A stretch of DNA of 64,000 bases from Alteriqipengyuania halimionae (GTDB lineage Bacteria > Pseudomonadota > Alphaproteobacteria > Sphingomonadales > Sphingomonadaceae). A model generated the notes under the pieces. That model had not been told where the DNA came from and did not search any database. It saw only the letters and a list, made by a program, of their open reading frames with translations. The stretch spans positions 2,329,001-2,393,000 of the forward strand of contig NZ_WTYR01000001.1 of the NCBI RefSeq assembly GCF_009827575.1. The letters run 5' to 3'. This document shows, piece after piece, positions 34,897 through 44,734 of this stretch (the stretch's first letter is position 1; the number at the start of each line of letters is the position of its first letter). A program made the position numbers and the translations under genes.

Positions 34897-35649
34897 ATGG
34901 ACAGCACCATCATGGCGAGAAGCCTTTTCGAACTCAATCCGCAGGTCGATCGCACGGCCGCGGCACGACGTTTCGCACACGATCGCCGAGTGCAGGTTCG
35001 CGATGTGCTGACACAGGAAACCGCGCGCGAAATTCGCGAGATCCTGATGCGTGGCACTCCGTGGGGGGTAGGCTGGCAAGCAGGACTTGAAGCCGAGCCC
35101 CAACATGCGCGCGCGGAACAATTGCAAGGTGCCTCCGCACAAGCCCTCGGTCGCGAGATCGCGGAAGCGACACATAAATCGGCGGCGCACGGCGATTACG
35201 CGTTTCGCTATGCCCGCTATCCCATGGTCCAGGCCTATATGGAGAAATGGGCGGAGGGCAGTCCGCACGATCTGCTGATCGAATATCTCAACACGCCCGA
35301 GACGCTCGATCTGGTGCGCGACGTCACGGGAATGGCTGACCTTAAAAAGGCCGATGCGCAGGCCACTTTGTTCGCCCCGGGGCATTTCCTCGGCCGGCAT
35401 ATCGACAGCCATGTCGAGGAGGGCTGGAAAGTCGCCTACGTCCTGAATTTCGCGCCCGACGACTGGCACCCGGACTGGGGCGGCTATCTCAATTTTCTCG
35501 ACGAGGATGGCGATATCGTGGCCGGCTACCGCCCTCGCTTCAACTGCCTCAACATGTTCGCGGTGCCCCAGGCGCACCTGGTGAGCTTCGTCCCCCCATT
35601 TGCGCCGACAGCGCGGTTTGCCATCACGGGATGGTTCCGCAACCAATGA
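34897..35649 (+). CDS. 2OG-Fe(II) oxygenase, Tpa1/Ofd1-like
   Basis: A 250-residue 2-oxoglutarate/Fe(II) dioxygenase. The metal-binding HxD is in FLGRHIDSHVEEGWKVAYVL (about residue 166), with the distal His in VPQAHLVSFV and the 2OG-binding Arg in ARFAITGWF. NFAPDDWHPDWGGYLNFLDE is the core strand typical of the prolyl-hydroxylase Tpa1/Ofd1 group, whose eukaryotic members modify ribosomal protein uS12. The target here is unknown. The stop overlaps the start of a second oxygenase gene (ATGA). It is divergent from the phytase-like gene. Confidence 0.87.
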   Translation: MDSTIMARSLFELNPQVDRTAAARRFAHDRRVQVRDVLTQETAREIREILMRGTPWGVGWQAGLEAEPQHARAEQLQGASAQALGREIAEATHKSAAHGDYAFRYARYPMVQAYMEKWAEGSPHDLLIEYLNTPETLDLVRDVTGMADLKKADAQATLFAPGHFLGRHIDSHVEEGWKVAYVLNFAPDDWHPDWGGYLNFLDEDGDIVAGYRPRFNCLNMFAVPQAHLVSFVPPFAPTARFAITGWFRNQ

Positions 35650-37322
35650 GCGACGCCGCCCGCCTGCGTGACGAAGCGATGGCGGCGGAAAAGGCTGGCG
35701 ATAGTCCGCGAGCTCGGCAGTTGTTCGAGAGCGCCGTGAAGGTCGCGCCAGAGGATCCCCGACTGCTTAATTCGGCTGGGGCCGCTTATCTGCGTTGGGG
35801 AGACCTTGCGCAGGCAATTGCGCTGTTTGCAAAAGCGCGCGCGTTGGCCCCCGCCGAGCTCGATTATCCGATCAACGAGGCCATCGCGCTAGGCCGTGAG
35901 GGCCGACACGGCGCCGCTGCGCGACTGCTCGCCTCGGTCGAACAGATCGGAAAATCACAGGCGCGCTACTGGTCCGCGCGGGGCAATGCGGAGCGGCAGG
36001 CCTACGACTTTGCTTCCGCCCAGGCGAGCTATGACAACGCGCTGGCGGTCGATCCACGCCACGCTCGGGCCGCGCACGGTCGGGCGATCATCGCATTCGA
36101 GCGGGGGCAGGCCGATACGCTGCAACGGTTCGATCGGGCGATTGCGCTCGCGCCTGGCGAGATCGCCCTGTGGCGGACAAAAGCGATGGCGCTCGATGCC
36201 GAAGGGCGCACGACAGAGGCGCTGGCGATCGGCGAACAGGTCGTGACGCAGATACCGCAATGGGTCGAAGGTCTGGAATCTTACGCCCAATTGCGCATCG
36301 GAACGGGTGAAAAGGACTTTGCGAGCCACTACGACGACGCAGTCGGCAAGACCGACGCTCCGGACGAGATCTTCGGTTCCTGGGCGAAGATGCTGGCCGG
36401 GCTCGATCGCTTTGCCGAGGCTGCCGATGTCGCTGCTCGCGCCAGAAGAGAGGCACGCGAGCCAGAGAGCTTCGCCCTGTCCGAAGCGGTCTATGCCGGA
36501 TTGGCCTGTGACAATGATCGGGCCGAGGCGATCTTCACCAAAATCGGCGACGTGCCGCGTGATTGGCAAAAACACGCGGCGCGACAGGATATCCGCATGG
36601 GCCGGATCGAACGTGCCGAACGCACGCTGGGAGCGCTGATCGAGTCGCGCGATCAGCATGACGACGTCGATCTGTGGGCCTTGCGCGACGTCTGCTGGCG
36701 CCTTCTTGACGACCCTCGCCATGAATGGCTGCATGGACGCGAGGGCCTCGTTCGCCCGATGCCTCTCGGCAACCCTCAGGTCTTGGATGAAGCGCGGACA
36801 GCTCTCCGCGAATTGCATCGCAAGGCGGCGCTTCCGATCGGCCAGTCCGTGCGGGGCGGCACCCAGACACGAGGGCGACTATTCCAGCGCGAGGAGCCGA
36901 TACTGGCGAAGCTCCACGATGCGATCATGACCACGCTGGAGCGCTATCGTCGAGAGATGCCCGAGCGGGACGAGAGCCACCCGATACTGCGCCATCGCGA
37001 CGAGCGTTGGAAGCTGACGCATTCGTGGTCGGTCCGGCTGGTCGGCGCGGGCTATCATACCAGCCACATCCATCCCCTCGGCATCCTCTCGTCGGCGCTC
37101 TATCTGATTGTGCCGGACTCGGTCGACGACGACGGCGCACCGGGTCATCTGGAAATCGGCCGACCTCCTCCCGACCTGCAAACCGCGCTCGGCCCGATCA
37201 TGACGATTAGGCCAAGCGTCGGGCATCTGGCACTTTTTCCCAGTTCACTGTATCACGGCACGAGGGACTTTGATGAAGGCGAACGGATGACGGTCGCCTT
37301 CGATGTGAGCATCGGGGGATGA
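35646..37322 (+). CDS. TPR-repeat putative 2OG-Fe(II) oxygenase
   Basis: A 558-residue protein. Residues 1 to about 320 are tetratricopeptide-like repeats (AMAAEKAGDSPRARQLFESA, AYLRWGDLAQAIALFAKARA, ARAAHGRAIIAFERGQADTL). The C-terminal 200 residues are a 2OG-FeII_Oxy_5-type domain: SWSVRLVGAGYHTSHIHPLG, LSSALYLIVPDS, GHLALFPSSLYHGTRDFDEG with candidate iron-binding His residues. The repeats probably bind a protein substrate. It overlaps the first oxygenase gene. Its TGA stop at 37320 is in the same frame as the following methyltransferase, with no stop after it. Confidence 0.85.
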   Translation: MSDAARLRDEAMAAEKAGDSPRARQLFESAVKVAPEDPRLLNSAGAAYLRWGDLAQAIALFAKARALAPAELDYPINEAIALGREGRHGAAARLLASVEQIGKSQARYWSARGNAERQAYDFASAQASYDNALAVDPRHARAAHGRAIIAFERGQADTLQRFDRAIALAPGEIALWRTKAMALDAEGRTTEALAIGEQVVTQIPQWVEGLESYAQLRIGTGEKDFASHYDDAVGKTDAPDEIFGSWAKMLAGLDRFAEAADVAARARREAREPESFALSEAVYAGLACDNDRAEAIFTKIGDVPRDWQKHAARQDIRMGRIERAERTLGALIESRDQHDDVDLWALRDVCWRLLDDPRHEWLHGREGLVRPMPLGNPQVLDEARTALRELHRKAALPIGQSVRGGTQTRGRLFQREEPILAKLHDAIMTTLERYRREMPERDESHPILRHRDERWKLTHSWSVRLVGAGYHTSHIHPLGILSSALYLIVPDSVDDDGAPGHLEIGRPPPDLQTALGPIMTIRPSVGHLALFPSSLYHGTRDFDEGERMTVAFDVSIGG

Positions 37323-37325
37323 TCG

Positions 37326-38225
37326 ATCGCGCATTCGGGGAATGGCGCCTGGGAAGCGTTCTGGGCAAGTGAGGCTGGGCGCGCAAAGGGGTGCCTGCCC
37401 GCAGGTTGGCAAGGGATAGACGCGGTACAGGCGGAAGCCTGGCGAAGGTTCGGCAAACGGATCGACGACGGTGGCCGGATTCTCGATCTTGGCACCGGCG
37501 ACGGGAGGGTGCTGGGAATGCTCAGACGAGTATCGCCGCAGCTGGAACTGATCGGGGTCGATCTGGCGCGCACCTTGCCCGAACCACCCGAGGGAACCAG
37601 CACGCAGGGCGGCGTGCCGATGGAGTCCCTGCCGTTCGAGGACGACAGTTTCACGGCCGTCACGGCCCAGTTCGCGGTCGAATACGGTGACGTAACCAGG
37701 ATCGCGCCCGAAATCGCTCGCGTTTCGCAGGACGGCGCGCTCGTGGGCCTTATCACCCATCGCGACGACGGCCCGATCCTCGCCCATAATGTACAGCGCC
37801 GCGAAGCGATTCGGTGGGCTATCGACGAAGAGAAGTTGATCGAAGTCGCGCGCAAGAGCCTCGCCCTGCGGTATTTCGGACTGCATGGCGCGGCTCCGGG
37901 CATCGCCCGCGCCCCGGCCGAGGGCGCACGCCGTTTCGGCCCACGGTCGGCGGCATGGGAGATTGCCGAAGCCATTCGGCAGACGGTCGAGATGGGCGCG
38001 CGCTCCGATCCTGCCGTGGTCGCGGCCACATTGGGCCAGATCGAGACGCAAGCGCGCAACGAGCTGGGTCGGATCGATTCTCTCGAGCGAGCCTGTGGCA
38101 CCTTTGCGGATGAGCAAGCGGTCGAAGGGGTGTTCGCGGAATCGGGGCTCGAGCTGATCGAGACCCGGGATCTCTTTGAAGCCGACGGTCCTCCCTTCGC
38201 GCATTTCCGTCTGCTCAGAGCCTGA
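37326..38225 (+). CDS. SAM-dependent methyltransferase with no standard start codon
   Basis: Reading directly after the TGA at 37320-37322, the frame gives SIAHSGNGAWEAFWASEAGR, then CLPAGWQGIDAVQAEAWRRF and the class I SAM motif RILDLGTGDGRVL, followed by IGVDLA and MESLPFEDDSFTAVTAQFAV. The N-terminal part clearly belongs to the enzyme, but it has no ATG, GTG or TTG before motif I; the first GTG (37509) lies inside the motif. Possible explanations are ATC (37326) or CTG (37395) initiation, TGA readthrough from the oxygenase, or an indel: an ATG at 37319 (ATGA overlap) is out of frame. Coordinates give the longest supported extent. Confidence 0.75.
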   Translation: MAHSGNGAWEAFWASEAGRAKGCLPAGWQGIDAVQAEAWRRFGKRIDDGGRILDLGTGDGRVLGMLRRVSPQLELIGVDLARTLPEPPEGTSTQGGVPMESLPFEDDSFTAVTAQFAVEYGDVTRIAPEIARVSQDGALVGLITHRDDGPILAHNVQRREAIRWAIDEEKLIEVARKSLALRYFGLHGAAPGIARAPAEGARRFGPRSAAWEIAEAIRQTVEMGARSDPAVVAATLGQIETQARNELGRIDSLERACGTFADEQAVEGVFAESGLELIETRDLFEADGPPFAHFRLLRA

Positions 38226-43276: not shown

Positions 43277-44734
43277 TTAACCGAACAAATCTTCCTGTCC
43301 GGGCGGTGATTTTTTAGGGCGGACGGCAGCTTTGCGCGGCGACGGGGCGTTGCCTGACGGCACAGCATCAAGGGTGCCGTCGGCGAATTTCAAGCGAAGG
43401 AGATCGGCTTTGCCAGCCGCTTTCGCACTCGTCAGCGTCGCTCCGTCGCCCGTCATGACGCGGACATAGCCACGCGAGAGCGGACGATCGGGGTGGAGCT
43501 GTTCGGCCAGCCGCGCGAGGGCATCGAGTTTTCGCCGCTGTTCGGCCACGGGACGGCGAACCAGGTCGGGCGACAGCCGCTGCCCCGCCAGCCGCGCGGC
43601 CTGTTCGCGCAGTTGCCCCTGTAGCAGGGCAGGAGAAAGCCGCAGCGCGCCGAGACGTTCGCGGCCATGCGCCGCACGTTCGGTCAAACCGCGCTTCAAC
43701 CTGTCCGCCAGATCGTCGAGCCGCTGGGCATAGGGCTGAAACAACGTGTCGGTGCCGGGGAGACGCTCCGCACGGGCCTGCAGTCTCTCGCGTCCCAAAG
43801 TCACGGGGCGGCGCGCCGCCGCGCCCTGGCGCTGTCCGAGCTCGGCGATCCAGCCGGCCAGCTCGGCGCGCACCGGCACCGCCATCTCGGCCGCGGCCGT
43901 CGGCGTGGGCGCACGCCGGTCGGCGGCGAAATCGGCCAGCGTGGTGTCGGTCTCGTGCCCCACCGCGCTGATCACGGGGATCGGGCACTCGGAAATCGCG
44001 CGGACCACCGCTTCCTCGTTGAAGCCCCACAGATCCTCAATCGATCCGCCGCCGCGCGCGACGATCACGACATCGGGCCGCGGCACCGCACCGCCTGCCT
44101 CCATCGCAGCGAAACCGCGGATGGCGGCGGTGACCTGATCCGCGCTGCCCTTGCCCTGCACCAGCACCGGCCAGACGAGGACGCGACTGGGGAAGCGATC
44201 TTCGAGGCGGTGAAGGATATCGCGGATCACCGATCCGGTCGGCGAGGTCACCACGCCGATCGTGCGCGGGAGCATCGGCAAGCGGCGCTTGCGGGTCTCG
44301 TCGAACAGGCCTTCTGCGGCGAGCCGCTGCCTGGTCTTTTCGAGGAGCGCCAGTAACGCGCCCTCGCCCGCGACCTCCATCCGCTCGATCACGATCTGGT
44401 AGTTCGACCGCCCCGGATAGGTCGTCAGTTTTCCGTTGGCGACGACTTCGAGACCGTCTTCGGGCTGGAACGCGAGCCGCGCGACGTTTCCGCGCCACAT
44501 TACCGCATCGATCCTCGCCTTGTCGTCCTTGAGATTGGCGTAAAGATGCCCGGATGCCGCGCGCTTGACCCCCGAGAGCTCGCCGCGAATGCGCACGAAC
44601 CCGAAGCGATCCTCGACCGTGCGCTTCAATTGCGCGGAAATCTCGCTGACCGAGAAGGGTTCCGCGTTGTCGCCTGCACGGCTGGTCGCTACGAGGTTGT
44701 TATTGTCGTCATCTGGAGGCGTACCGGCAGGCAT
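43277..44734 (-). CDS. xseA: Exodeoxyribonuclease VII large subunit
   Basis: A 485-residue nuclease subunit. The N-terminal OB-fold is visible in [20 protein letters not shown] then [20 protein letters not shown]; the catalytic region has [39 protein letters not shown] and [27 protein letters not shown] segments. It degrades single-stranded DNA with XseB, which is not in the window. ATG 44734 ([12 protein letters not shown]) shares CATG with the divergent purD start, so each promoter must lie in the other gene or read outward from inside it. Confidence 0.94.

Follow-up and report, generated by a model that had tools for sequence, protein, structure and literature searches.

Introduction

According to the available part of PMC5472188, the noncanonical start codons that experiments have characterised are very few. 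Among the genes described there are infC, which starts with ATT in E. coli and with ATC in Streptomyces, and Streptomyces sigR, which starts with GTC and is repressed by IF3. Gene finders that are restricted to ATG, GTG, and TTG cannot report starts of this kind. The available part of PMC11497404 makes no mention of AUC, and a search of the literature on AUA-started infC in this group or on AUC starts in alphaproteobacteria gave nothing relevant among the matches listed.

Here, we analyze a methyltransferase gene of Alteriqipengyuania halimionae, located in a stretch of 64,000 nucleotides (the window) of a 2.81 Mb genome in 2 contigs. We think that this gene likely initiates at AUC 37326, judging from its sequence and from the comparison with its relatives. 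It would be a probable addition to the known, rare class of AUH-start genes, the AUC being seen in one genome only.

The Methyltransferase Frame and Its Gene Cluster

The cluster at 34897-38225 (+ strand) comprises two 2OG-Fe(II) oxygenases and one methyltransferase. The first gene of this apparent operon (34897..35649) encodes a 2OG-Fe(II) oxygenase (PF13661/PF13640), for which the PDB gave only a distant match (4iw3, E 1.2e-6). The second gene (35631..37322) combines TPR repeats with a 2OG-FeII_Oxy_5 domain, as recognised by Pfam, and ends with TGA 37320-37322; it adjoins the methyltransferase in 44 relatives. The methyltransferase frame follows at 37323-38222, with its stop TGA at 38223-38225, and its codons after TGA 37320 read SIAHSGNGAWEAFWASEAGR...RILDLGTGDGR. 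The Pfam model Methyltransf_11 (PF08241) matches this frame with E 2.1e-7 and 31.9 bits, above the curated cut-off of 21.2, which, together with the GxGxG-like loop of SAM-binding motif I (RILDLGTGDGR, 37476..37508, + strand, from sequence and Pfam), makes the protein a class I SAM methyltransferase.

Reading of the frames confirmed the two observations on which the original prediction was built. The methyltransferase frame is that of the upstream TPR/oxygenase gene, TGA 37320 being the sole stop that separates them, and no in-frame ATG, GTG, or TTG lies between this stop and the conserved coding sequence, the earliest one being GTG 37509, immediately behind motif I. The protein itself is well preserved. 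In the one other genome of the genus that was examined (L002), its match has E 1.6e-116 and 64% protein identity, with dN 0.30 and dS 1.15. It departs from the family in 7 of 84 well-conserved columns and in 1 of 40 invariant ones, the corresponding figure for 30 of 49 relatives being 1-9 of 81-86 columns; overall, its agreement with the conserved columns is similar to that of the relatives.

Start Codons in Relatives

The family search covered 199 and then 397 genomes, giving a match at E ≤ 0.001 in 60 and then 116 of them; the weakest of these matches span the SAM domain only and may be other methyltransferases. The genus search found the gene in 2 of 2 genomes, one of them the window's own, and the named genomes gave 14 loci, the named relatives being mostly Erythrobacteraceae or other Sphingomonadales-type records. 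The comparison was made on 50 distinct start contexts, one from the window and 49 from relatives. Each of the latter has an in-frame ATG, GTG, or TTG ahead of a W-x-x-F/Y-W motif, which in the window is AWEAFW (37347..37364, + strand). When 20 weaker relatives were added, 17 showed the motif, all with canonical starts (L185 among them repeats L020), and in L194, L198, and L203 the motif was not recognisable and they were left unjudged. In total, 68 distinct relatives were examined and 65 judged, and in 65/65 a canonical in-frame start precedes the motif. An ATC start occurs in none of the 65 judged relatives, and thus a near-cognate start is not conserved; the genus mate L002 starts with TTG.

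The start codons are ATG in 43, TTG in 4, and GTG in 1 of 48 contexts, a set that omits L044 (two GTG codons could be its start; identity 24%) and in which the downstream ATG was used where two starts were possible. The distance from start to motif ranges from 4 to 12 codons, with 7 and 8 as the commonest values (16/48 each). Among the 44 relatives whose oxygenase stop was located, 23 have a start that overlaps it as NTGA; the window has ATGA at that overlap site, but its ATG is one base out of frame. The original prediction had proposed such a comparison of homologous loci, and it speaks for a separate start: every judged relative has a canonical start of its own and 0/44 are fused to the oxygenase. 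Since a canonical in-frame start is present in every judged relative, the window's methyltransferase should also have its own start, and since the motif is family-wide, this start is expected after TGA 37320 and before 37347.

ATC 37326 and Its Candidate Shine-Dalgarno Site

Among the eight codons from TGA 37320 to the motif, ATC 37326 (37326..37328, + strand) is the only near-cognate one. It lies 7 codons ahead of the motif, one of the two commonest distances in the family, and the coding sequence proposed from it (37326..38225, + strand) has 299 codons plus stop. A candidate Shine-Dalgarno (SD) site, CGGGGGA (37313..37319, + strand), stands 6 nt ahead of it, with a pairing energy of -8.6 kcal/mol for an assumed anti-SD, as no 16S tail turned up in the genome stretches that were searched. 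The genus mate L002 has the identical CGGGGGA, with the same energy and the same 6-nt spacing, before its TTG start. The oxygenase of L002 reads the shared G run in a different frame from that of the window, and therefore it is the nucleotides, not the residues, that have been kept.

An SD this strong at a spacing of 4-9 is infrequent in the window: 0.83% of 3000 random positions have one, and a scan in 3-nt steps over 34900-38200 gave 17 among 1100 positions. With the same limit on spacing, a strong SD precedes the start in 3/4 of the TTG-started relatives versus 5/43 of the ATG-started ones (medians of -8.6 vs -3.4 kcal/mol; the relatives are not independent), which suggests a tendency for weak starts in this family to be paired with strong SDs.

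The N-terminus that would result from ATC 37326 is also family-like. Its second residue would be Ala, and T, S, G, A, N, P, or D occupies this position in 48/48 relatives. The linker AHSGNG scores 0.51, inside the family range, with lower scores in 9 of 45 family linkers (the score was built on the 45 distinct ones among 48). Against initiation at AUC it counts that the local fold prediction has the codon mostly paired, and that AUC initiates very poorly in E. coli. Of the interpretations offered by the original prediction, the one with the best support is initiation at ATC 37326; a start at CTG 37395 and readthrough of the TGA are not supported, as set out below.

The infC gene of the same genome served as a positive control. 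No canonical start precedes the conserved part of this gene, and an ATA stands behind CAGGAGA, so near-cognate initiation is apparently already in use in this genome, and the same type of evidence finds a near-cognate start where one is expected. This anatomy is common to the family: comparison of 12 genomes showed ATA behind AGGAG at a spacing of 6-7 in 12/12, followed by GCYCG in the infC loci inspected (L094, at G000:C1 about 44453-44700, minus strand; also L174-L184). Five of the 12 genomes lack any canonical start before the conserved part, and 7 have an in-frame ATG or GTG downstream of the ATA, 3-8 codons before the conserved part, which could draw annotation.

The missing canonical start of the methyltransferase is more than a chance feature, as a survey of coding-like loci matched to the genus mate genome indicates. 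In the strict survey, 4 of 248 loci were flagged as having no canonical start. Three of these flags were resolved by eye (two genes with an ATG deeper inside the match and one shadow frame), and therefore the methyltransferase alone lacks a canonical start among the 248 loci. The infC gene is outside this set because its ORF would need a canonical start to be listed. Looser surveys, with 7 and 30 flags, were discarded because they included matches that extended into leaders or antisense frames.

Alternative Explanations

The main rival is that ATG 37319 (37319..37321, + strand) is the true start, overlapping the oxygenase stop as ATGA, and that one extra base lies between 37322 and 37346, either as a recent crippling frameshift or as a sequencing error; the original prediction had also named a small indel of this kind. 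The NTGA overlap is common in the family, as noted above, a one-base net change would place ATG 37319 nine codons ahead of the motif (a distance seen in 5/48 relatives), and a GGGG run is present at 37337-37340. However, an A ahead of any given TGA has about a one-in-four chance, and ATG 37319 lacks a usable SD (at a spacing of 4-9, the energy is -1.9 kcal/mol). The N-terminus depends on where the base is changed. A change in the GGGG run would give a sequence that scores below all 45 linkers, with Ile at position 2 and a Phe, found in none of them, whereas a change nearer to ATG 37319 scores like the ATC reading (0.46 vs 0.51).

The quality of the assembly bears directly on this explanation. 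We took 844 kb of chromosome, made up of the window and a further 780 kb, together with an 11-kb plasmid, and compared them with the ORFs from 1.18 Mb of a second genome (G059). At an identity of at least 45%, 304 loci were matched and 6 were flagged for frame breaks, none of which was upheld by eye, the flags being due to antisense ORFs or to over-long ORFs crossing gene boundaries. About 99,000 residues were aligned, part of them in shadow frames, and they showed 0 frame-break events. By a rough estimate, this puts the rate of indel errors at no more than about one in every 100 kb of coding sequence, which makes a single indel error unlikely. The genome looks well assembled, and the remainder of the methyltransferase gene is intact. 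Breaks in a gene's first codons nevertheless escape the screen, and that is exactly where the rival places the break. In our opinion, a start at ATG 37319 with one extra base is unlikely, while deserving serious consideration.

The remaining alternatives are improbable even when taken together. With a start at GTG 37509 or CTG 37395, the protein would be truncated or inactive. The first canonical start, GTG 37509, has a strong SD-like CGGGAGG ahead of it, but with a spacing of 0; both codons sit behind the W..FW motif and would drop it, and the GTG would also drop SAM motif I, although the family keeps both. We consider such a start very improbable. Readthrough of TGA 37320 into an oxygenase-methyltransferase fusion would exploit the shared frame and the single stop between the genes, but frame sharing has a one-in-three chance and occurs in only 4/44 relatives with a located oxygenase stop, each of the four with its own ATG; as the fused arrangement is found in none of the 44, we give this reading hardly any credence. 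Programmed +1 frameshifting from ATG 37319, which lies one base off the methyltransferase register and opens an ORF of 17 codons to TGA 37370 (by eye), has a stop that lies beyond the W..FW motif, shows no prfB-like slippery stop (by eye), and is a device that no judged relative needs with its in-frame start, so that we regard it as most improbable.

Predicted Hairpin and Proposed Mechanism

For initiation at AUC 37326, a predicted hairpin in the mRNA offers a possible link to translation of the preceding gene. It spans 37288..37329 (+ strand) and would hide the SD, with a mean unpaired probability of 0.17. A 121-nt region around it has z -2.5, with 2 of 200 shuffles equally stable. The strands of the hairpin come from the 3' end of the oxygenase gene (the codons for TVAFDV) and from the G-rich SD of the methyltransferase. 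The structure is partly common to L002, where the SD is more open (unpaired probability of 0.43 vs 0.17 in the window). The hiding of the SD suggests that translation of the oxygenase opens the hairpin and that terminating ribosomes restart on the AUC.

In the mechanism that we propose, the third gene of the oxygenase, TPR/oxygenase, and methyltransferase operon would be translated from AUC 37326. Passing ribosomes would unfold the hairpin and expose the G-rich SD CGGGGGA, and those ending the TPR/oxygenase at UGA 37320-37322 would halt 3 nt short of the AUC. The strong SD, at its 6-nt spacing, would then set the initiator tRNA on the AUC. The product would be the family-typical (f)M-AHSGNG-AWEAFW..., with (M)AHSGNGAWEAFWASEAGR as its predicted N-terminal peptide. 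As with other AUH starts, low output and repression by IF3 are expected. The AUC start is thus modeled as probably coupled to oxygenase termination, weak, and sensitive to IF3; we infer the initiation at AUC, the coupling, the low level, and the IF3 control alike. A broader proposal would see here a lineage-specific AUC on the last gene of the operon, preserved through its strong SD and a hairpin tied to termination, and giving low-level, IF3-responsive expression that parallels AUA-started infC; we put it forward as a speculative and rather doubtful idea.

Comparison with Known Systems

If the AUC start is real, gene finders limited to ATG, GTG, and TTG would cut the methyltransferase behind its SAM motif. 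Among the known systems, infC resembles it in having an AUH start, and Streptomyces infC, according to the available part of PMC5472188, uses the very AUC proposed here. On the other hand, infC is autoregulated by IF3, a loop that the methyltransferase does not have, and its ATA is found in 12/12 genomes of the family versus a single genome for the ATC of the methyltransferase. The likeness to sigR, as described in the same part of that source, is that of a non-NTG start on an ordinary gene with a strong SD, whose start usual gene finders misplace; the GTC of sigR was demonstrated by experiment, whereas the ATC start is proposed from sequence.

The Erythrobacteraceae orthologues that were judged differ by starting with ATG, GTG, or TTG. 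They share with the window the neighboring oxygenase and the conserved motif, and L002 shares the SD and its spacing as well. Should the AUC reading hold, two members of one genus would provide a natural pair, ATC versus TTG, at the same site and behind the same SD.
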